Shown here one piece after another: positions 6,697 through 16,604 of a stretch of DNA of 45,238 nt. Both the position numbers and the translations under genes were made by a program. Under the pieces are notes generated by a model. The model was not told the origin of the DNA and did not search any database. It saw only the letters and a list, made by a program, of their open reading frames with translations. This DNA is from Planctomycetia bacterium. Its GTDB lineage: Bacteria > Planctomycetota > Phycisphaerae > Phycisphaerales > SM1A02. Positions within the stretch are counted from its first letter, which is position 1. Each line of letters starts with the position of its first letter. Location of the stretch: contig SXSS01000085.1 of the NCBI GenBank assembly GCA_005792145.1, positions 1 through 45,238 of the forward strand. Direction: 5' to 3'.

Positions 6697-7776
6697 ATGT
6701 TTTTCCTAATCGCGAAGAAACGCTTTGCTTTCATCTTCGTGGTTCTCATCGCAGCATCTTCGCTGAATTCAATAGCAGGAAGTGATGTTGCTTCAACGGC
6801 TGTCGTGTGCGCGCCGACTAGTGAAAATATAAATGCTGGAGATTTGAGCATCTTCAGTTCTGCAAGTCCTCCTGCGCACGAAATCAGAGAGATTGCGTGG
6901 CTTGTTCTTGGAATTTCCGCGGCAATATTTGTTGTCGTTGAAGGTGTCTTGGTCTGGTCGATCATCCGCTTTCGAAAGCGTGCGCGTGATGCAGGCGAAC
7001 CTGTGCAAGTCTTTGGCAGCAATCCTGTGGAACTTGCTTGGACTGTCATTCCGACAATCATCGTGTTTGTGCTTGCGCTTGCGACTCTGAGAACAATTCG
7101 TGAAGTGCAATTGACCGAAGCTCCCGAAGGTTCGCTAAATGTGGATGTCATTGCTCACCAATGGTGGTGGGAATATCGGATCCCGAATCTTGACGGAAAT
7201 GGAACGATTGTTACTGCGAACGAACTTGTTGTCCCTGTTGGACGACCAATTTGGCTGACGCTTCAATCGGCTGATGTCATTCATTCTTTCTGGATTCCAC
7301 AGTTGAATGGCAAGACAGACATCATTCCAAATCATGCCAATCACACTTGGTTTCAGGCGGAGCGTGCTGGTATTTTTCTTGGGCAGTGTGCGGAGTATTG
7401 CGGAAAACAACATGCGAATATGTTGCTGAGAGTGACCGCTGTCGACGATGCCGCATTCAAAGCGTGGTGCGTGCATCAATCCAGTCCTGTTGTTTCCGAC
7501 CCATCCGTCGAGCAAGGGAGGGATATGTTCCTGAATTTGGCATGTATGAATTGTCATGCGATTGATGGAGTTTCTGGAGGATCATTTGGCCCAAATTTGA
7601 CCCATCTCATGAGCCGAACAACAATCGGTTCGGGAGTTGCACCGCTGAATCCAACGACACTTCGTGCGTGGGTTGATGATCCACAGAATCTGAAAGTTGG
7701 TTGCAATATGCCGAGCCTCGAACTGGATCCAAATCAACTTGACGCAATTGTTGCGTATCTCTTGACCTTGAAATAA
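6697..7776 (+). CDS. coxB: Cytochrome c oxidase subunit II with fused haem c domain (359 aa)
   Basis: This subunit takes electrons from the cytochrome c pool through the binuclear CuA site and passes them to CoxA. It has a signal peptide (cut near residue 28), two membrane helices (about 66-90 and 113-132) and a cupredoxin domain. CuA ligands are visible: His196, and Cys231, Glu233, Cys235, His239 and Met242 in GQCAEYCGKQHANM. A C-terminal class I cytochrome c domain has CMNCH (283-287) and a probable axial Met338, making this a caa3-type enzyme. It is the first gene of the respiratory operon. The ATG lacks a good Shine-Dalgarno sequence. Length fits caa3-type subunit II. Confidence 0.97.
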   Translation: MFFLIAKKRFAFIFVVLIAASSLNSIAGSDVASTAVVCAPTSENINAGDLSIFSSASPPAHEIREIAWLVLGISAAIFVVVEGVLVWSIIRFRKRARDAGEPVQVFGSNPVELAWTVIPTIIVFVLALATLRTIREVQLTEAPEGSLNVDVIAHQWWWEYRIPNLDGNGTIVTANELVVPVGRPIWLTLQSADVIHSFWIPQLNGKTDIIPNHANHTWFQAERAGIFLGQCAEYCGKQHANMLLRVTAVDDAAFKAWCVHQSSPVVSDPSVEQGRDMFLNLACMNCHAIDGVSGGSFGPNLTHLMSRTTIGSGVAPLNPTTLRAWVDDPQNLKVGCNMPSLELDPNQLDAIVAYLLTLK

Positions 7777-7782
7777 ATCCAT

Positions 7783-9477
7783 ATGACGACCGCATCACAT
7801 CCTCACGCCGTTCCCGATGAAGTGCGCCGCACATTGGGATCTCAAGTTCATTCGTGGATCGTCACAGTTGATCACAAACGACTTGGAATGATGTATGTCG
7901 GATTTGGGTTGCTCTTTTTCGTCATTGGAGGAATCGAAGCGGCGTTGATGCGATCACAACTCGCGCAGGCAGCTGGCAAGATCATTGATCCAGCCACATT
8001 CAATCAACTCTTCACGATGCACGGAACGACGATGGTCTTCTTGGTGGGAATGCCCATCTTGCTTGGCATGGGAAATTATTTGATCCCGCTGATGGTTGGT
8101 GCACGAGATATGGCGTTTCCGCGGTTGAATGCATTCGGTCTGTGGCTTTTTGTTTTCGGGGCATGCCTTCTTTATTACTCCTATATTGGAGCGCAAGGTC
8201 TCTATGGAACTTCGGCGGCGCCCGATGTTGGATGGTTCGCTTATGCACCTTTGACATCGAAAACATTTTCGCCTGGAAATTCGACGGACTATTGGATTCT
8301 TGGAATCTTGATCAGCGGGCTGGGGAGCATCACGACTGCGATCAATCTTGTTGCCACGATCTTGGTCATGCGCTGTCCAGGAATGACCTTGATGCGAATG
8401 CCTCTTCTTTGCTGGATGATGTTGATCACGGGAATTCTGGTGATTATCGCGATTCCCGTTCTGACTGGCGCGCAAGCAATGTTGCTCTTGGACCGCTATT
8501 TGGGCGCTCATTTCTTTGACACGCAAAATGGTGGATCGGCAGTGCTTTGGCAGCATCTCTTCTGGTTCTTTGGACATCCAGAGGTGTACATCTTGGTGTT
8601 GCCTGCGTTTGGATTTCTCAACGAAATTATTCCCGTCTTCAGCCGCAAAGTCATCTTTGGATATGCGTTGATGGTCGCGGCGACAGTTGCCATTGGTTTT
8701 ATTTCCCTCAGTGTCTGGGCGCATCACATGTTTTCAATTGGAATGTCGCCTGAATTGAATTCGTTTTTCGCGGCCACGACATTTCTGATCGCCGTTCCAA
8801 CTGGGATCAAGATATTCACTTGGTTGGGAACGATGGTCGGTGGACGAATCATCTTCGCGACGCCGATGCTTTTCGCCACAGGGTTCATCGCGATGTTCAC
8901 CTTCGGCGGATTGACCGGCGTGATGTTGGCGGTCGTGCCATTCGACTGGCAATTGTCGGATAGTTATTTCGTCGTCGCGCATTTTCACTATGTGCTCTTC
9001 GGCGGAACGGTCTTTGGAATTTTCGCCGGTGTCTTTTATTGGTTCCCCAAGGCAACTGGCCGAATGCTCTCAGAAAGACTTGGGAAATGGTTCTTTTGGC
9101 TCTTATTCTTCGGATTCAATCTGACATTCCTGCCGATGCACATTTCAGGAATTCTGGGAATGCCTCGAAGAATCTATATGTATCAACCAGACCGCGGGCT
9201 TGAATTGTGGAACATGCTTTCTTCGATCGGTGTTCTCTTTCAGGGAATCGCAGTTTCGTTTTTCATCTGGAACATCATCACTTCGCTTCGCAAAGGCAAG
9301 ATTGCTGGCAACAATCCGTGGAACGCTTGGACGCTCGAATGGGCAACTTCCAGTCCACCTCCGGAATGGAATTTTGATCAAGTGCCGACTGTTGGTTCTG
9401 CGCGACCACTGTGGGATCTTGCCAATCCACACGATCCTGATTCGCGGCACGAGACTGAAGGCGAGGGGAACAAATGA
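7783..9477 (+). CDS. coxA: Cytochrome c oxidase subunit I, A1 type (564 aa)
   Basis: Catalytic subunit that reduces O2 to water at the haem a3-CuB centre and pumps protons. About twelve membrane helices. Ligands are in place: His80 and His402 (haem a), His265, His314 and His315 (CuB), His400 (haem a3). The GHPEVY motif (264-269) has the proton-channel Glu267 and cross-linked Tyr269 that define family A1. A hydrophilic C-terminal tail of about 60 residues carries WEWxxxSPPP-like sequence common in caa3 oxidases. It starts six bases after the coxB stop, and its stop overlaps the coxC start (ATGA). Confidence 0.98.
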   Translation: MTTASHPHAVPDEVRRTLGSQVHSWIVTVDHKRLGMMYVGFGLLFFVIGGIEAALMRSQLAQAAGKIIDPATFNQLFTMHGTTMVFLVGMPILLGMGNYLIPLMVGARDMAFPRLNAFGLWLFVFGACLLYYSYIGAQGLYGTSAAPDVGWFAYAPLTSKTFSPGNSTDYWILGILISGLGSITTAINLVATILVMRCPGMTLMRMPLLCWMMLITGILVIIAIPVLTGAQAMLLLDRYLGAHFFDTQNGGSAVLWQHLFWFFGHPEVYILVLPAFGFLNEIIPVFSRKVIFGYALMVAATVAIGFISLSVWAHHMFSIGMSPELNSFFAATTFLIAVPTGIKIFTWLGTMVGGRIIFATPMLFATGFIAMFTFGGLTGVMLAVVPFDWQLSDSYFVVAHFHYVLFGGTVFGIFAGVFYWFPKATGRMLSERLGKWFFWLLFFGFNLTFLPMHISGILGMPRRIYMYQPDRGLELWNMLSSIGVLFQGIAVSFFIWNIITSLRKGKIAGNNPWNAWTLEWATSSPPPEWNFDQVPTVGSARPLWDLANPHDPDSRHETEGEGNK

Positions 9478-10070
9478 GCGTTGCATCTACGACACTATCT
9501 CTTCCAAAGCAGTGGCAACCATCACGCGGAAAGGTCGGCATGATCTGCTTGATCGCTGCCGAAAGTTGCATCTTCTTGACATTTGTTGTCGCGTATCTTT
9601 TTTATATAGGCAAAAGTGCGACGGGGCCTCAGCCGAAAGATGTGATTGAAATGCCTTTGGTGATCGTCAATTCGATCGCGCTCATATCAAGCTCTTTCAC
9701 AGTTGTCTTCGCAGTCAAATCCCTTGAACGCCAGAGAAAAAGCGCATTTCTGGGATGGCTGGCTTTGACCATTGTGCTTGGTCTTTGGTTTGTCGGAGGA
9801 ACCGCATCTGAGTGGAAGGGGATGATGGAAGAAGATGGCCTGTACATCGGGACCAATCTCTTTGGAACAACTTTCTATTCACTCGTTGGTTTGCATCTAC
9901 TTCATGTTCTCGTTGGTCTGACAATGCTTGGGATTGTGTTGATCCTTGGTGCGTTGGGCTTTGTGAAAGTTCGGCACGCGCACTCCTTCGACATGCTGAG
10001 TTGGTATTGGCATTTCGTGGATGCAGTGTGGATTATTGTTTTTACCACCGTGTATGTGATTGGACGTTGA
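9474..10070 (+). CDS. coxC: Cytochrome c oxidase subunit III (198 aa)
   Basis: Integral membrane subunit that stabilises the oxidase core. It has five hydrophobic segments, LIAAESCIFLTFVVAYLF near the N-terminus, GTTFYSLVGLHLLHVLVG in the middle and SWYWHFVDAVWIIVF near the end, all characteristic. At 198 residues it is the short five-helix form found in many bacterial caa3 and bo3 enzymes. The start is well supported: GAGG lies about eight bases upstream of an ATG that overlaps the coxA stop by four bases. Confidence 0.95.
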   Translation: MSVASTTLSLPKQWQPSRGKVGMICLIAAESCIFLTFVVAYLFYIGKSATGPQPKDVIEMPLVIVNSIALISSSFTVVFAVKSLERQRKSAFLGWLALTIVLGLWFVGGTASEWKGMMEEDGLYIGTNLFGTTFYSLVGLHLLHVLVGLTMLGIVLILGALGFVKVRHAHSFDMLSWYWHFVDAVWIIVFTTVYVIGR

Positions 10071-10933: not shown

Positions 10934-11631
10934 TAATGCTGCGAATTCCAAATTTCTTTTCTTGCTTGTTGATTTTTGCTTCCATTGGGTGTGATCGAAT
11001 GCCAGGAAAACCAACGGTGGCGACTCCTGTCGCGATTGGATCATCAGCCTGGACTCAATCGACTTTTGATACAAATTGCCGAGGCTGTCATTCCCAGGGT
11101 GCTGAAGGCGCGGCAATTCCGCTGATTGATGCTGGATATTGGAAAGTTGCCACTGATGCGCAAGTGATTCAAGTCATCTCTCATGGTCAAGGAGTTTTGA
11201 TGCCGAGTTACTTGGAATCCAATGGTGGACCGATGAGCGCGGAACAAATTGCCGCGTTCGTGAAAGGGATGAGATCTTTGTGGGGGGCAGGCTCTCCTGG
11301 CGGTCAAGGCGGAATTTCTGATGTGGTCGTTGCCGGAAATGCTGACGCTGGAGCGCACGTCTTCGCTTCCGCGTGTGCATCGTGCCACGCCGCTGGAGGT
11401 TCAGCAGGAAGTGTGACCGACCCGATGTATCTGAAATTGATTTCCAACCAAGGCTTGTGGAGCGCTATTGTTTATGGCCGCGCAGCACTCGCAAGTCCAG
11501 CATGGAATGAACCAATGCCCAATCATCCAAATGGTTTAACTCCAACGGAAGTTGCGGATGTAGTCAGTTGGATTGCGCAAGCGAGACCAGTTTCCCCAGC
11601 GAATAATCAGAATGCGAGTAATGCGAAATGA
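10930..11631 (+). CDS. Dihaem c-type cytochrome lipoprotein (233 aa)
   Basis: Probable electron carrier between the Rieske/cytochrome b module and the oxidase. The N-terminus is a hydrophobic leader ending in SIGC, an imperfect lipobox, so it is likely anchored to the outer face of the membrane. Two class I haem sites follow, CRGCH (about 50-54) and CASCH (about 149-153), each with a downstream Met candidate (VLMPSYL, NEPMPNH). I chose the GTG at 10930 because GGAGG lies six bases before it and it overlaps the previous stop by four bases; the ATG at 10936 is the alternative and loses two residues. Confidence 0.9.
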   Translation: MIMLRIPNFFSCLLIFASIGCDRMPGKPTVATPVAIGSSAWTQSTFDTNCRGCHSQGAEGAAIPLIDAGYWKVATDAQVIQVISHGQGVLMPSYLESNGGPMSAEQIAAFVKGMRSLWGAGSPGGQGGISDVVVAGNADAGAHVFASACASCHAAGGSAGSVTDPMYLKLISNQGLWSAIVYGRAALASPAWNEPMPNHPNGLTPTEVADVVSWIAQARPVSPANNQNASNAK

Positions 11632-12212
11632 GTGACAATACGAATGGTGAAACGAAGAAAGAAGGATGCGTTGGCTGCGGTTGCGGAGGTGGCGGTGGTG
11701 GAAGTCTTCCTCCCGTTGCCGCACAAGACGCGCGGCGCGGATTCATGTTCAAGTTTGGCGCTGGATTGCTGGGAATAGGCGGTGCTCTTGCGGCAGTGCC
11801 AATCGTTGGATACATCATTGGCCCAGCTCGAAGCCGATATCGAAATGAATGGGTCGATCTGGGTGCAACCACGCTTTTCCCATCGGGACAAACTCGTTTC
11901 GCTACATTTCTCAATCCAATTCGACAGCCGACCGATGGTGATGCTGCGAAAACCGCATGCTGGGTTCGCTGTGTAGAAACTGGAAAGTTTCAAGTTTTCG
12001 CTATCAACTGCGCACACTTGGGATGTCCTGTTCGCTGGTTCGAGCAATCCAAACTTTTCATGTGCCCCTGTCACGGAGGGGTGTATTACCAAGATGGCAG
12101 TCGTGCCGCGGGTCCGCCGCCGCGTGGACTCTTTGAATACAAATGGAAAGTTGAAGGCGGAAAACTCTTGATCGACGCTGGACGATTGCCGGGCTTGGAA
12201 GAATCAGTATGA
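11628..12212 (+). CDS. Rieske [2Fe-2S] protein (194 aa)
   Basis: Iron-sulfur subunit of a quinol:cytochrome c oxidoreductase. The cluster boxes are complete: C128-A-H130-L-G-C133 and C146-P-C148-H149-G-G, with C133/C148 as the usual disulfide pair. A Tat-like signal, ARRGFMFKFG, precedes one membrane helix (about 45-65), as usual for Rieske proteins. Before it lies an odd Gly/Cys cluster (GCVGCGCGG, residues 13-21) on the cytoplasmic side. The start overlaps the previous stop and the stop overlaps the cytochrome b start (ATGA both times). Confidence 0.95.
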   Translation: MSDNTNGETKKEGCVGCGCGGGGGGSLPPVAAQDARRGFMFKFGAGLLGIGGALAAVPIVGYIIGPARSRYRNEWVDLGATTLFPSGQTRFATFLNPIRQPTDGDAAKTACWVRCVETGKFQVFAINCAHLGCPVRWFEQSKLFMCPCHGGVYYQDGSRAAGPPPRGLFEYKWKVEGGKLLIDAGRLPGLEESV

Positions 12213-13759
12213 ACCGCGATGCAATCATCAAACTTCTCAAGCAACCTGTGCAATGGGTCGAAGAGCGCACTGGTGTCATTGCATTCAGTGCGCCATTACT
12301 TACCCATCATGTTCCTCGCAGCGCGAAATGGTGGTATGTCTTTGGAAGCGCCACTCTGATGTTCTTTACGATTCAGATTGTGACTGGGGTTTGTCTTGGA
12401 ACGATGTATGCCCCAAGCGCTTCAAATGCCTGGGAAAGCCTTCGATATATCGACGAGGAAATTCCTCTTGGTTGGATGTTGCGCGCGCTGCACGGATGGT
12501 CAAGCAGTGCGATGGTTGTGATGATGGCAATCCATATGTTGCAAGTCTTTATGCACGGCTCGTTCAAATATCCGCGCGAACTGAATTGGATCACAGGCGT
12601 CTTCTTGTTGTTGACCGTGCTTGCATTGGCTTTCACAGGACAGGTGATGCGATGGGATCAAGATGCTTATTGGGGGCTTGGAATTGGCGCGGCAATCGTT
12701 GACCGCGTTCCAGTCTTCGGAGATCAAATGCGTGCGCTGATGTTGGGTGGACCAATCATCGGCGGTGAAACTCTCAATCGATTCTTCGCCCTGCATGTTT
12801 TCATTCTTCCAGGAGCTGCGATTGGACTTGTAGGAATCCACATGACACTGATTATGAAGAACGGGATCAGCGAAATGCCCAAGCCCGGCGAGATCGTGGT
12901 TCCTTCGACATATCGCAAAGAATTCGAAGAGCGGATGCATAAAACAGGCGTGCCTTTCTTTCCTGATGCGGCTCAGCGCGACATGGTTTTCTGCGGAGTT
13001 TGTCTGATTCTGCTGGTGTTTTTGGCCGCGTATTACGGTCCATTTGGTCCAGGCGGAATGCCAGATCCCACATTGATCAATACAAATCCACGACCTGATT
13101 ATCCATTCATGTGGATCTTCGGCGCGGTCAGTCTTCTGCCACCTGCATCCGAGACTGCCATCATGCTGATTTCACCTGTTATTGGAATTGCCATCTTGGT
13201 TGCAGTTCCATTTCTTTCAAACTCTGGTGAGCGTGCTCCGAGTCGTCGGCCTGGAATGATGCTGCTAGCGGTCTTTGTTGTGATGGCAATCGTCGCATTG
13301 ACATGGGAGGGAGTCACAAGCCCTTGGTCGCCAGTGATGAATGGTTGGTCTGCGCTGCCAACTCCAACGCAGTTTGTGAAGGGTCGCACGCCTTTACAAA
13401 TGCAAGGTGCGGTTGTCTTTCAATACGCTCAGTGCCGCAACTGTCATGAACTTGGTGGATTCGGCGGCAAGCGCGGTCCAGCGCTTGATGAGATCGCAAC
13501 TCGCATGTCGCCTGATCAGATCGTGCGACAAGTTCAGCAAGGTGGGGGCAACATGCCTGCGTTTGGCAAGAATCTCAATAGTGCTCAAATGACTGCAATT
13601 GTGGACTTTCTCAGCACGCTCCGCCCAGCAAATGAGCCGGACTCGACCATTCCCGGCGCACAATTGCCACTTCCAATCAAGTCGCCCCTGACACTGAATG
13701 AACCCTTCACTGGAACAGGAGTGCCAGCGGAAATTGCAACTGGAGCTTCATCGCGCTGA
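12209..13759 (+). CDS. Cytochrome b with fused C-terminal haem c domain (516 aa)
   Basis: Membrane core of the quinol-oxidising complex. The b-haem ligand pairs are His95/His109 and His196/His211; the 15-residue step of the second pair is the b6f-type spacing. About nine helices span residues 40-370. The position of the Qo-site PEWY motif reads RPDYPFMW (295-302). After the last helix comes a class I cytochrome c domain, CRNCH (409-413) with Met449 as probable axial ligand, and a Pro-rich tail. Fusions of cytochrome b to haem c are known in several phyla, where they replace cytochrome c1. The stop (CTGA) appears to overlap the start of the next gene. Confidence 0.95.
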   Translation: MNRDAIIKLLKQPVQWVEERTGVIAFSAPLLTHHVPRSAKWWYVFGSATLMFFTIQIVTGVCLGTMYAPSASNAWESLRYIDEEIPLGWMLRALHGWSSSAMVVMMAIHMLQVFMHGSFKYPRELNWITGVFLLLTVLALAFTGQVMRWDQDAYWGLGIGAAIVDRVPVFGDQMRALMLGGPIIGGETLNRFFALHVFILPGAAIGLVGIHMTLIMKNGISEMPKPGEIVVPSTYRKEFEERMHKTGVPFFPDAAQRDMVFCGVCLILLVFLAAYYGPFGPGGMPDPTLINTNPRPDYPFMWIFGAVSLLPPASETAIMLISPVIGIAILVAVPFLSNSGERAPSRRPGMMLLAVFVVMAIVALTWEGVTSPWSPVMNGWSALPTPTQFVKGRTPLQMQGAVVFQYAQCRNCHELGGFGGKRGPALDEIATRMSPDQIVRQVQQGGGNMPAFGKNLNSAQMTAIVDFLSTLRPANEPDSTIPGAQLPLPIKSPLTLNEPFTGTGVPAEIATGASSR

Positions 13760-16053
13760 GCGCGGCCGCAGCCATTTTCAGTAGTTGGAACATCGACCCA
13801 TGGTTGGTCGTTGCAATCGCATTGGCCTCAATCTTGTATGTGCGCGGTGTGCGAGGAATCGTTGGGCGAGTCCGCGGTTTCCCAACTTGGAGACCAAAGT
13901 GTTTTGCAGCGGGAATGATTGTTCTTTTTCTCTCGCTTGCATCTCCGATTGATTCGATCGGTCACTTGTTGTTATGGGTGCACATGGTTCAGCACTGGTT
14001 GTTGATCATGATCGCTGCGCCTTTGATTCTCTTGGGTTCGCCAGGAATCCCCTTGCTTCGAGGATTGCCCAAGGTAGTGCGAAGAGAAGCGCTTGGACCA
14101 TTTCTTGCAAGTCCTTTCGTGCGTCGATGTCTCGCGCTGTTGTTGAACCCATTCACTGGTTGGATTGCATTCGCACTTGTGAATTGGGGTTGGCACTATC
14201 CAACTTTTTACGGCGCAGCACTGCAATCAAATCTGGTTCACCGATTCGAACACGCCTCGTTTCTTGCAGGTTCGATGCTGTTTTGGTGGCAAATCATCGC
14301 GCCCTGGCCGTGGAAAGCCCGTTGGTCGGATGCAGCTTTGGTTGTCTATCTGCTGGCAGCAGATGTTCAGAACACAATCTTTTCTGCAATCGTCACCTTC
14401 TCGGATTCTGTGCTGTACTCAAACTATCTTGCGACTTCACCAGCGCTTGGCTGGGATGCACTTCGCGATCAGCGAATGGCTGGTGCGTTCATGTGGACCG
14501 CGGGTCAAGTTGTCATGCTGCCGACGGCGATCTTTTTGATCTTGCGTGCATTGAAAATGGTTCGCCCCACTCCATTTATTGCGCGAGAGAGACCATCGAC
14601 CGCCTCGCACATCACAGCACGCTTTGATCTGCTTCGAGTTTCATGGATCGGAGCATTTTTGCGCAAGCGTGCTGCGAGAGAATCGGTTCGATGGACTTTG
14701 GCATTCATTGCGCTGGTCCTTGTTATTGATGGTTTTTTTGGTCCATCAGATGCTCCGTCGAATTTGGCTGGGACACTTCCTTGGACTCACTGGAGAGGCT
14801 TGGTCGTGATAGCACTTTTATTCGGCGGCAATTTTCTCTGCATGTCGTGTCCGTTGATGGCGCCGCGCAATTTGATGCGTCGCTGGTGGCGACCTCGCTT
14901 TCGTTGGCCGACTGCGCTGCGATCCAAATGGTTGGCGGTTGGACTGGTTGCAATCTGGTTGATTTCATATGAGGCCTTTGATCTCTGGTCGAACCCAATG
15001 GCGACTGCATTGATATTTATTGGATATTTCGCTGCCATTCTGCTGATCGACGGACTCTTTCGAGGCGGAAGTTTCTGCAAATGGGTCTGCCCAATTGGGC
15101 AATTTCATATGGCTCAAAGTTTGATTTCCCCACTTTCTGTTTCTGTGCGCGATACTGCGGTGTGTGCAACATGTACTGGACGAGAGTGCATTCGCGGATC
15201 GGATTCTGGCTCCGCGAAATCCGCAAGTGTCGCGTTGAGCATTTCTGTTCCAGGCTGCGAATTAGAAATCTTTCAACCTGCCAAGCGTGGCAATTTGGAT
15301 TGCACATTCTGCTTGGACTGTGTGGATGCTTGTCCGCATGACAACATTGGAATCCTGACGCAATCGCCAAGTGTTGCATTGACCGATCGGCGGTGGGGTT
15401 CGTCGATTGGACGAGTCGCTTCTCGAGTTGATGTCTCTGCTCTGCTTGCACTCTTGACATTCGGTGCATTCGCCAATGCTGCTGGGATGACTGCGCCGTG
15501 GCTTGATCTTGTTGCATCAGTGACAAAGTCATTTGAACTGACATCGTCTGTCGCGGTTGAAGGAGGGATGACAACGATGGCGATTGTCATCCTGCCTGTG
15601 ATCCTGATGTCTTGCGCGGCTTTGATTTCATCACGCATTGGCGGGCGCTCGCTGCGCGAATCGCTCTGTGGCGGCGCACACGCACTGGTTCCCATTGGCG
15701 CATCAATGTGGTGTGTTCATTGGTTTTTTCATCTTGCAACAAGCGCTTCCACAGCGATTCCTGTGATGCAGCGGGCATTCAACGATATTGGTCTTGCCTG
15801 GTTTGGCGAACCAGATTGGGCCGAATCCTGCTGCGGAGCAGTTCCATCCTGGTTGCTTCCTGTCGAACTTCTGTTGCTTCAATCTGGGCTTGTGGTCTCT
15901 GGTTGGATGATCTGGCGGGGAAATACACAGCGAACAGGAGGGCGAGCAATCTTGGCATCAATTCCGTGGTGGACGCTCACACTCATCTTGTGGTTGGTGG
16001 GAGTCTGGATCGTCTTTCAGCCAATGCAAATGCGGGGGACTTCGACGCTATGA
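13756..16053 (+). CDS. CtaG-type oxidase assembly protein fused to a NapH/CcoG-like polyferredoxin (765 aa)
   Basis: Residues 1-265 match the CtaG family of caa3 oxidase assembly proteins: FSSWNIDPW at the N-terminus, SLASPIDSIG, HMVQHWLLIMIAAPL and NWGWHYPTFY, with about seven helices. From about 310 on there are further helices and a NapH/CcoG-like iron-sulfur part: CMSCP, CKWVCPIGQFHM, CATCTGREC, then a full 4Fe-4S motif CTFCLDCVDACP. More helices and a Cys-containing loop (SCCGAVPSW) close the protein. No ATG or GTG precedes the conserved N-terminus; CTG at 13756 overlaps the previous TGA exactly as the operon's other ATGA junctions do, with GGAG ten bases upstream. The TTG at 13804 would cut off the conserved segment. 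I infer roles in copper/haem insertion plus electron supply. Confidence 0.85.
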   Translation: MSAAAAIFSSWNIDPWLVVAIALASILYVRGVRGIVGRVRGFPTWRPKCFAAGMIVLFLSLASPIDSIGHLLLWVHMVQHWLLIMIAAPLILLGSPGIPLLRGLPKVVRREALGPFLASPFVRRCLALLLNPFTGWIAFALVNWGWHYPTFYGAALQSNLVHRFEHASFLAGSMLFWWQIIAPWPWKARWSDAALVVYLLAADVQNTIFSAIVTFSDSVLYSNYLATSPALGWDALRDQRMAGAFMWTAGQVVMLPTAIFLILRALKMVRPTPFIARERPSTASHITARFDLLRVSWIGAFLRKRAARESVRWTLAFIALVLVIDGFFGPSDAPSNLAGTLPWTHWRGLVVIALLFGGNFLCMSCPLMAPRNLMRRWWRPRFRWPTALRSKWLAVGLVAIWLISYEAFDLWSNPMATALIFIGYFAAILLIDGLFRGGSFCKWVCPIGQFHMAQSLISPLSVSVRDTAVCATCTGRECIRGSDSGSAKSASVALSISVPGCELEIFQPAKRGNLDCTFCLDCVDACPHDNIGILTQSPSVALTDRRWGSSIGRVASRVDVSALLALLTFGAFANAAGMTAPWLDLVASVTKSFELTSSVAVEGGMTTMAIVILPVILMSCAALISSRIGGRSLRESLCGGAHALVPIGASMWCVHWFFHLATSASTAIPVMQRAFNDIGLAWFGEPDWAESCCGAVPSWLLPVELLLLQSGLVVSGWMIWRGNTQRTGGRAILASIPWWTLTLILWLVGVWIVFQPMQMRGTSTL

Positions 16054-16604
16054 ACCTGCTTGCTTCCATCAAGTGGATCGCTTGTGGACTTGCGATTTCA
16101 TTCTGCATACAAGCGCACGCGGATGGTGGCGCGGTCGTCGATCGTGGTCGATATGGAGAATATGACGCGACGGTTTTTCTCTCGCCAGTCCCGCCGAGCG
16201 CAGGCGCGATTGATTTTTCTATTTTGCTTTCCCTCAGCGGCGAACCTCAACTGACCGTCCCAGTCCATGTTCGCGCCGAAGGTCCAAATGGTGCGTGGAC
16301 TGAAGCCGTGATGCATGATGCGGAGTCTGGGAATCGACTGCTTCGTGCATGTTCGCTGACGCTGGCAACCTCCGGTGCTTGGAAAATTTTCATCCATGTT
16401 GGCGAAAACACATCGAATTGCCGATCTTTCGATATTTTTGTGAATCCCGCTCCGCCACCATGGCGCGCATCATTGCCGTGGATGGTCCTGTGGATTCCCG
16501 TTGCACTGTTGCTCGTTGCACGAGAAATTCTCGCCGCTAACCAACGTCGGCGTAGAGGCGCTTCGGTTGATTCAAATCGTTTTTCAGCGACTATGCTTCG
16601 ATGA
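16050..16604 (+). CDS. FixH-like membrane-anchored protein (184 aa)
   Basis: It has a signal peptide (about 1-24, ending QAHA), a beta-rich domain of about 110 residues (DYDATVFLSPVPP-like start, then LTVPVHVRAEGPNG) and one C-terminal helix (about 145-163) followed by a basic tail. The layout and position after a CcoG-like domain suggest the FixH/YtkA group involved in oxidase maturation, but sequence similarity is not strong enough to be firm. Both ends overlap neighbours by four bases (ATGA), so it belongs to the operon. Confidence 0.8.
   Translation: MNLLASIKWIACGLAISFCIQAHADGGAVVDRGRYGEYDATVFLSPVPPSAGAIDFSILLSLSGEPQLTVPVHVRAEGPNGAWTEAVMHDAESGNRLLRACSLTLATSGAWKIFIHVGENTSNCRSFDIFVNPAPPPWRASLPWMVLWIPVALLLVAREILAANQRRRRGASVDSNRFSATMLR

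Follow-up and report, generated by a model that had tools for sequence, protein, structure and literature searches.

A CtaG–polyferredoxin fusion as a candidate copper-reducing assembly factor for caa3 oxidases

Introduction

CtaG is required for an active Cta oxidase in Bacillus subtilis, and the precise copper centre that it serves is treated as unsettled in PMC13344008. The same paper describes copper reduction in B. subtilis as possibly enzymatic and possibly not, notes that Firmicutes have no CcoG, and uses the natural fusions CtaG–CopD and Sco–DUF420 as evidence of interaction. CcoG itself is a Cu(II) reductase for cbb3 oxidases, with two iron–sulfur (Fe–S) clusters, two Cu sites and an electron donor given as unknown (PMC7558416), and the conserved ligands of CtaG are placed on the outer side in PMC8239418. 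Here we describe a gene of a freshwater planctomycete that encodes a CtaG domain and a membrane polyferredoxin as one protein. It lies in a 45,238-nucleotide stretch (Planctomycetia bacterium, assembly GCA_005792145.1, contig SXSS01000085.1, positions 1 to 45,238), which is referred to in full as the window.

Each half of this protein has described counterparts. As in the Caa3_CtaG family (B. subtilis CtaG; PF09678, TIGR02737), the N-terminal half passes the Pfam cut-off, has seven predicted transmembrane (TM) helices, lies in a caa3 operon and places Asp, His and Met at the predicted outer face; unlike B. subtilis CtaG, it is followed by a C-terminal polyferredoxin of nine predicted TM helices and falls far below the TIGR02737 cut-off. 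The C-terminal half resembles CcoG/FixG/RdxA (TIGR02745) as a CxxCP/CxxxCP membrane polyferredoxin with cysteines for two clusters, an immunoglobulin (Ig)-like partner and an adjoining oxidase. It differs in being fused to CtaG at a caa3 locus, whereas CcoG is encoded behind ccoNOQP, and its Ig-like protein is the product of a separate next gene instead of a C-terminal domain of the same chain. The nearest profiles are those of NapH/MauN (TIGR02163) and the NosR polyferredoxins, from which it is set apart by an extra TM module with HxxxH and QPMxMR and by a locus that is neither a nap nor a nos cluster. The CtaG–CopD protein of Corynebacterium glutamicum is likewise reported (PMC13344008) to join CtaG to another copper-related membrane module; the partner there is CopD, here a polyferredoxin. 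CtaG, polyferredoxin reductases and CtaG fusions are already known; the CtaG–polyferredoxin combination appears to be new. No report of CtaG fused to a ferredoxin or to CcoG was found in the literature searched, mostly outside subscription journals, and no such fusion is described in the available portions of PMC13344008, PMC8239418, PMC10654088, PMC6696091, PMC3475470, PMC10875860 and PMC6431628.

Results

The fusion gene occupies an uninterrupted frame of 765 codons plus stop on the forward strand (13756–16053), which places both halves in one protein. A first-pass annotation of this DNA had proposed such a joined frame, and its proposal is borne out. The CtaG domain (residues 26–266, 13831–14553) matches PF09678 with 188.7 bits against a gathering cut-off of 27.7 (expectation value, E, 1.5e-55). 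It is followed by a predicted cytoplasmic linker that contains the junction (residues 267–304, 14554–14667; low model confidence at 269–286) and by the polyferredoxin half (residues 305–765, 14668–16050), whose Fe–S domain, at about residues 436–557, is predicted to be cytoplasmic. The CKWVCP motif of the CxxxCP type (residues 441–446, 15076–15093), CATCTGREC (residues 470–478, 15163–15189; C470, C473, C478) and the 4Fe-4S motif CTFCLDCVDACP (residues 516–527, 15301–15336; C516, C519, C522, C526) are all present as first annotated; two further invariant elements had been overlooked, namely a first CxxCP motif (C362, C365, P366; 14839–14853), found by alignment at the predicted cytoplasmic end of TM9, and C501 (15256–15258), the eighth conserved cysteine of the Fe–S domain. 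Judged by the motifs, C516, C519, C522 and C526 together with C470, C473, C478 and C501 are enough cysteines for two 4Fe-4S clusters. Beyond this domain the protein contains an HxxxH motif (H655, H659; 15718–15732) in the predicted outer half of TM14 and a C-terminal QPMQMRG (M757, M759, R760; 16018–16038) at the predicted outer face.

The same architecture is found well beyond the window. A pattern search of a genome collection (84,980 species by its own description) returned 293 stretches, 286 of which are relatives. The best 80 were fetched, and in each of them a single frame contains both halves; six of these frames run off a contig end and the other 74 are closed on both sides. The domain order therefore recurs in other genomes, and a frameshift or an assembly artefact at the junction is ruled out by this one-frame arrangement. 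By record titles, some of which read only "uncultured bacterium" and a few of which look mislabelled, the relatives belong to Planctomycetota, Verrucomicrobiota and Acidobacteriota; on these sequences, the fusion is real and its conservation extends over three phyla. Cultured carriers among them are Lacipirellula limnantheis I41 (L049) and Acidobacteriaceae KBS 96 (L050). In a wider set of 87 proteins, drawn from 110 first frames after removal of near-duplicates, frames shorter than 590 residues and the cousins L029 and L030, both CxxCP/CxxxCP motifs are found in 87/87 and the eight further cysteines in 86/87. The exception (L026), from the genome G023, a single metagenome-assembled genome, has lost about residues 483–556 with the Fe–S cysteines by an in-frame deletion (L138, 6633–8618) and keeps CxxCP, CxxxCP, HxxxH and QPMxMR.

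Two kinds of record call for care. The same superoperon is found in records named Klebsiella pneumoniae (L111) and Candidatus Kuenenia (L081), which are probably mislabelled bins. In genome G025 the fusion gene appeared to be broken by insertions, an interpretation that was discarded when these proved to be runs of N marking scaffold gaps. Such gaps of about 300 N, some with flanking repeats of 23–24 bp, interrupt several genes at this locus (L131) and mimic insertions: two of the four in the fusion gene are repeat-flanked, and a third repeat-flanked gap lies in the cytochrome b gene.

Conservation was assessed in an alignment of 65 proteins, the window protein and 64 from the 74 closed loci, to which the counts out of 65 below refer. 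In the CtaG half, the invariant columns include H76, M77, H80, H147, H162, H166, D238 and M246. In the ferredoxin half, C362, C365, C441, C445, C470, C473, C478, C501, C516, C519, C522 and C526 are present in 65/65, as are H655, H659, M757, M759 and R760. D238, the presumed counterpart of D249 in B. subtilis CtaG, is also kept in 8/8 operon-type standalone and 49/49 other standalone CtaG copies. Sixteen TM helices were placed by hand from an AlphaFold model (predicted local distance difference test, pLDDT, 86.6; predicted template modelling score 0.63) and hydropathy. In this arrangement lysine and arginine are concentrated in the inner loops (mean 44.1, against 5.4 in the outer loops; inner exceeding outer in 65/65), which predicts a cytoplasmic Fe–S domain and a position at or close to the outer face for the CtaG ligands, for H655/H659 and for the MxMR tail. 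The seven predicted TM helices of the CtaG half, with outer-face His and Met and an invariant Asp, fit the Caa3_CtaG family. A fold search with the model gave no PDB match at E 0.001 or less and no VIA-align Z of 8 or more, and solved structures include no sequence relative at E 0.01.

Profile searches place the two halves differently. All 65 proteins match PF09678 at E 0.1 or less, and the window protein passes the family cut-off; it fails the narrower CtaG equivalog TIGR02737 (70.2 against 279.35 bits). The ferredoxin half had been labelled NapH/CcoG-like. NapH is indeed the nearest profile: TIGR02163 matches residues 383–532 of the window protein weakly (24 bits against a cut-off of 213.05, E 2.4e-5) and 65/65 proteins at E 0.1 or less (best 1.7e-12). 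CcoG (TIGR02745, cut-off 316.7 bits) gives no match to the window protein at E 0.1 and weak matches to 15/65 (best 2.7e-5), and NosR matches 29/65 at E 0.1 or less. The FixG_C Ig-like domain is absent among the 16 Pfam families matched by the 65 proteins. By the curated cut-offs for sequence matches, the ferredoxin half is thus neither CcoG nor NapH.

The gene probably begins at 13756 with a non-standard CTG codon, which runs into the TGA stop codon of the preceding cytochrome b gene (CTGA, 13756–13759). Among 15 related loci (L032–L046), this overlap is CTGA in ten, GTGA in three (L043, L045, L046) and missing in two (L040, L044), and a rule restricted to ATG, GTG or TTG would move the start to 13804, downstream of the nearly invariant W11. 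The recurrence of the overlap and the position of W11 make 13756 the likely start.

Upstream, on the same strand, lie the genes of an oxidase and a bc-type complex. Subunit II of caa3 type, a CoxB with a C-terminal cytochrome c region (6697–7776; 185.8 bits against a cut-off of 147.7), is followed by the CtaD/CoxA subunit I (7783–9477; 713.6 against 670.75), the cox3 subunit III (9474–10070), a Rieske protein (11628–12212) and a cytochrome b with a C-terminal cytochrome c domain (12209–13759), whose stop overlaps the first codon of the fusion. The neighbouring oxidase is, by its genes, an A-type caa3 enzyme with a bc-type complex (Rieske/cytochrome b), and not a cbb3 oxidase. The setting recurs: in profile searches, a cytochrome b gene lies directly upstream of the fusion at 66 of the 74 loci with room for it, and cox2, cox1, cox3 and cytochrome b are all upstream in 46 of 51 relatives having more than 7 kb there. 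Four of the 80 loci (L064, L066, L075, L076) show no operon genes in the fetched DNA. The gene order had been likened to the ccoGH of cbb3 loci; here CtaD_CoxA and CoxB, both over their cut-offs, mark a caa3 operon. CcoG is a distinct protein whose gene accompanies ccoN.

The next gene (16050–16604, forward strand) overlaps the fusion stop by ATGA and encodes a YtkA/FixH-like protein. Its model (pLDDT 91.7) has an N-terminal helix, an all-β domain and a long C-terminal helix, which read as a signal peptide, an Ig-like domain and a TM anchor. The window copy matches no Pfam family, neither YtkA (PF13115) nor FixH (PF05751). Among the downstream proteins of 37 relatives, 17 match YtkA (best 2e-7) and 7 match FixH (best 4.2e-4), with E 1 as the limit. 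An Ig-like gene does follow the fusion as first annotated; its likeness is more often to YtkA, the CtaK of Bacillus, than to FixH. It shares with YtkA/CtaK and FixH an Ig-like outer protein encoded downstream, and is unlike them in its C-terminal TM helix, in lacking conserved His, Met and Cys and, in the window, in matching neither profile. The closest PDB fold is the copper protein CrdA of Helicobacter pylori (E 1.5e-4), with filamin-type and general Ig folds close behind.

In profile searches, a YtkA-like gene directly follows the fusion at 65 of 72 loci. The first 1,000 bases downstream were also searched by profile at E 1: the gene is present behind both of the fused acidobacterial sister copies L251 and L252 (E 1e-40 and 2e-43) and behind none of the seven fused loci counted earlier as lacking it, at one of which, L095, it lies 1.35 kb away. 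Behind the unfused CtaG of otherwise similar operons, described below, it is found within 1,000 bases in 0/7. By these counts, the YtkA-like gene and the ferredoxin half occur together (65/72 fused against 0/7 unfused operon copies; Fisher p 1e-6, for rows that are related and reflect two loss events).

The occurrence of CtaG was surveyed in the three phyla. PF09678 is matched in 36 of 392 Planctomycetota genomes (34 over cut-off), of which 12 have the fusion in one frame, G023 without its cluster domain included, and G346 has it split over two contig ends; of the other 21, eight standalone copies were profile-checked and 13 judged by frame length alone. In Acidobacteriota the match is found in 19/198 genomes, three with the fusion, and in Verrucomicrobiota 32/194 genomes are over the cut-off, three with the fusion, a count that leaves out eight of 38 matches without a locus, one of them a 719-residue frame in G641. 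One Bryobacterales genome (G434; L255, L263) has four CtaG matches, and one fused copy shows an in-frame TGA near the C-terminus in one search.

In a quick CtaG tree of 108 of 121 rows, near-copies having been dropped, 65 fused and five standalone rows form one clade (Shimodaira–Hasegawa-like approximate likelihood ratio test 99) and the other 38 standalone rows fall outside. A more careful tree was built from 45 chosen rows, with 14 outside copies as the root; it groups 24 fused with seven standalone rows (100/99). The fusion pattern needs three changes, and under that root one gain of the fusion and two losses of the ferredoxin half are favoured. All seven standalone rows come from Acidobacteriota, where an unfused CtaG gene immediately follows that of cytochrome b in a similar operon. 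In eight such genomes the ferredoxin half is not found elsewhere, save for one weak match (3e-6).

The ferredoxin half also occurs alone. A search of 294 Planctomycetota with it gives matches in 77 genomes, many of them weak, and seven high-scoring copies without CtaG (G337, G218, G199, G120, G195, G180, G100). All seven keep the 12 cysteines, H345, H655, H659, M757, M759 and R760. A second careful tree, built from 41 chosen rows, places them within the planctomycete fused rows (94/83), on a branch that is not starred; the starred branches alone do not force the nesting, but the fused rows make up one side of a branch in 0/200 bootstrap trees. This nesting suggests, at the level of sequence, one escape of the ferredoxin half from the fusion to a new locus.

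The new locus type (L175, 8177–11786; L176, 9530–12166; L178 and others) comprises a His-rich membrane protein, here called X, a YtkA-like protein with NM(N/S/T)HAGM, the standalone polyferredoxin and a second Ig-like protein. Protein X is upstream in six of the seven loci, the contig ending first in L180, and the YtkA-like protein precedes the ferredoxin gene in 5/5 loci read. The second Ig-like protein has HDG or HEG just after an apparent signal peptide and would have a mature N-terminal His if cut there. From its gene content, this locus type is possibly another copper system. The idea that protein X is a short CtaG was rejected (hhalign probability 13%, only a WHxxEHA motif in common).

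More distant cousins have the same 12 cysteines, HxxxH and MxMR in 8/8 checked and differ at H345 and R347. At seven of nine cousin loci (L181–L189) a protein with CPYCGVGC is encoded. The six of these that were profiled have NapA as best match, all under the equivalog cut-off, and for this reason they are called NapA-like molybdoenzymes here. Two cousins carry a YHS domain, over the cut-off in L132 and under it in L133. In both (L132, 3627–5801; L133, 4432–6726) YHS is fused to the cousin polyferredoxin with a second polyferredoxin adjacent, that of L132 ending in a YtkA-like stretch; no CPYCGVGC motif is found within 10 kb.

The relation to CcoG was surveyed in 61 relatives, 27 of which count as fusion genomes: 22 with a whole fusion, G023, G025, whose gene is interrupted by runs of N, and three in which a contig ends within the gene, among them G017, in which the CtaG part alone is visible and the fusion is presumed. 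This count leaves out G039 and G051, which have the YHS cousins, and G028, which has a fragment of CtaG. Cox11 (PF04442) is matched in 0/61, window genome included. CcoG is matched in 22/61, 19 over the cut-off, and these 19 all have ccoN (18 over the cut-off and a contig-edge fragment in G012); ccoN without CcoG is seen in G009, as a fragment, and in G043. CcoG is not found in 21 of the 27 fusion genomes, including that of the window, which is 90% complete and has no ccoN match either. That the fusion replaces CcoG is not supported as an exclusion: both occur in 6/27 fusion genomes, against CcoG in 13/34 others (Fisher p 0.27). Of the 20 fusion genomes lacking a strong ccoN match, none has CcoG, and the fusion could therefore fill the place of CcoG for caa3.

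Discussion

We favour, with a probability of roughly 0.55, the interpretation that the fusion is a reduce-and-insert copper assembly factor for the adjacent caa3 oxidase. Electrons would enter the cytoplasmic Fe–S domain, with quinol or a cytosolic ferredoxin as candidate donors, and pass to a copper site, where Cu(II) would be reduced to Cu(I). The CtaG half, through its outward His, Met and Asp ligands, would take up the Cu(I) and deliver it to the nascent CuB, or possibly CuA, site, and the YtkA-like Ig protein may be the outer-face partner of the ferredoxin half. Copper could be reduced at the CxxCP motifs on the cytoplasmic side and then pass through CtaG; alternatively, electrons could be carried across the membrane to copper bound on the outer side by H655/H659 and the MxM tail. 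The fusion, its operon, the invariant residues, the clade structure and the co-occurrence of the YtkA-like gene and the ferredoxin half are read directly from the genes, and the topology is predicted; copper as the substrate, the direction of electron flow, the transfer from reductase to CtaG and the centre served we infer by joining the published roles of CtaG and CcoG with this anatomy. The partners of the ferredoxin half are often of copper or metal types, namely CtaG, the NM(N/S/T)HAGM YtkA-like proteins and, in two cousins, YHS.

Several observations weigh against this interpretation. The ferredoxin half misses the curated cut-offs of both CcoG and NapH. Because the predicted topology puts the Fe–S domain and the CtaG ligands on opposite sides of the membrane, the interpretation has to suppose a route through it. 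The downstream proteins have no conserved His, Met or Cys and therefore need not bind copper. The ferredoxin half was apparently lost twice in Acidobacteriota, as the trees read, with CtaG kept, and G023, judged by its sequence, is a natural removal of the clusters in a genome that has no CcoG match. Finally, cousins beside NapA-like enzymes would be expected to act in quinol oxidation and not on copper. It is the nearness of the NapH profile, the NapA-like neighbours, the two lineages without the half and the cluster loss in G023 that hold our confidence at this level.

Some of these points would fit a ferredoxin half that is a quinol-oxidising NapH-type module serving another assembly step, such as the reduction of CuA cysteines, haem or Sco-type chaperones, with CtaG providing location alone. 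All 65 aligned proteins match NapH against 15 for CcoG, the motif-sharing cousins adjoin NapA-like enzymes, and PMC13344008 connects YtkA/CtaK of Bacillus with the assembly of CuA. We nevertheless consider such a module rather unlikely, as the half is fused to a copper-site factor with YtkA-like proteins alongside and the NapH cut-off is unmet; no thiol oxidoreductase partner was noticed, though none was searched for. Membrane polyferredoxins elsewhere carry electron flow, and the position directly behind the cytochrome b gene at 66/74 loci would suit a part of the respiratory chain that is docked through CtaG, lets electrons from ferredoxin or quinol enter a bc–caa3 supercomplex and has no role in assembly. 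This is improbable given that the half is absent from otherwise similar acidobacterial operons, that the fusion protein contains no CxxCH haem c motif and that CtaG has an assembly role in Bacillus (PMC13344008). Least probable of all, in our view, is a sensor or gate in which the clusters would respond to oxygen or iron status and turn copper delivery by CtaG on or off, without net electron transfer to copper. The half is dispensable in some lineages and G023 retains the membrane part without the cluster domain, as a gate might allow; against this, CxxCP/CxxxCP, the eight further cysteines, HxxxH and MxMR are invariant in the alignment, as expected of a redox carrier, and are retained in 7/7 escaped and 8/8 cousin copies checked.

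Returning to copper reduction and insertion, a more specific form can be put forward tentatively, at somewhat short of even odds: one polypeptide, of single origin and present in three phyla, that would both reduce Cu(II) and insert copper into A-type oxidases, and in which electrons from the cytoplasmic clusters would reach CtaG-held outer copper by way of HxxxH and MxMR. It would be the caa3 counterpart of CcoG, the YtkA-like protein replacing the Ig domain of CcoG.

Copper reduction is the step for which an enzyme is missing in caa3 oxidase assembly, and the fusion is a good candidate for it. It would join the reduction and insertion steps and names a candidate enzyme for a question left open in B. 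subtilis. Nature offers matched comparisons by which the roles of the two halves may be separated: operons of the same kind that have kept CtaG and lost the ferredoxin half, and ferredoxin halves that have escaped to a locus of their own.

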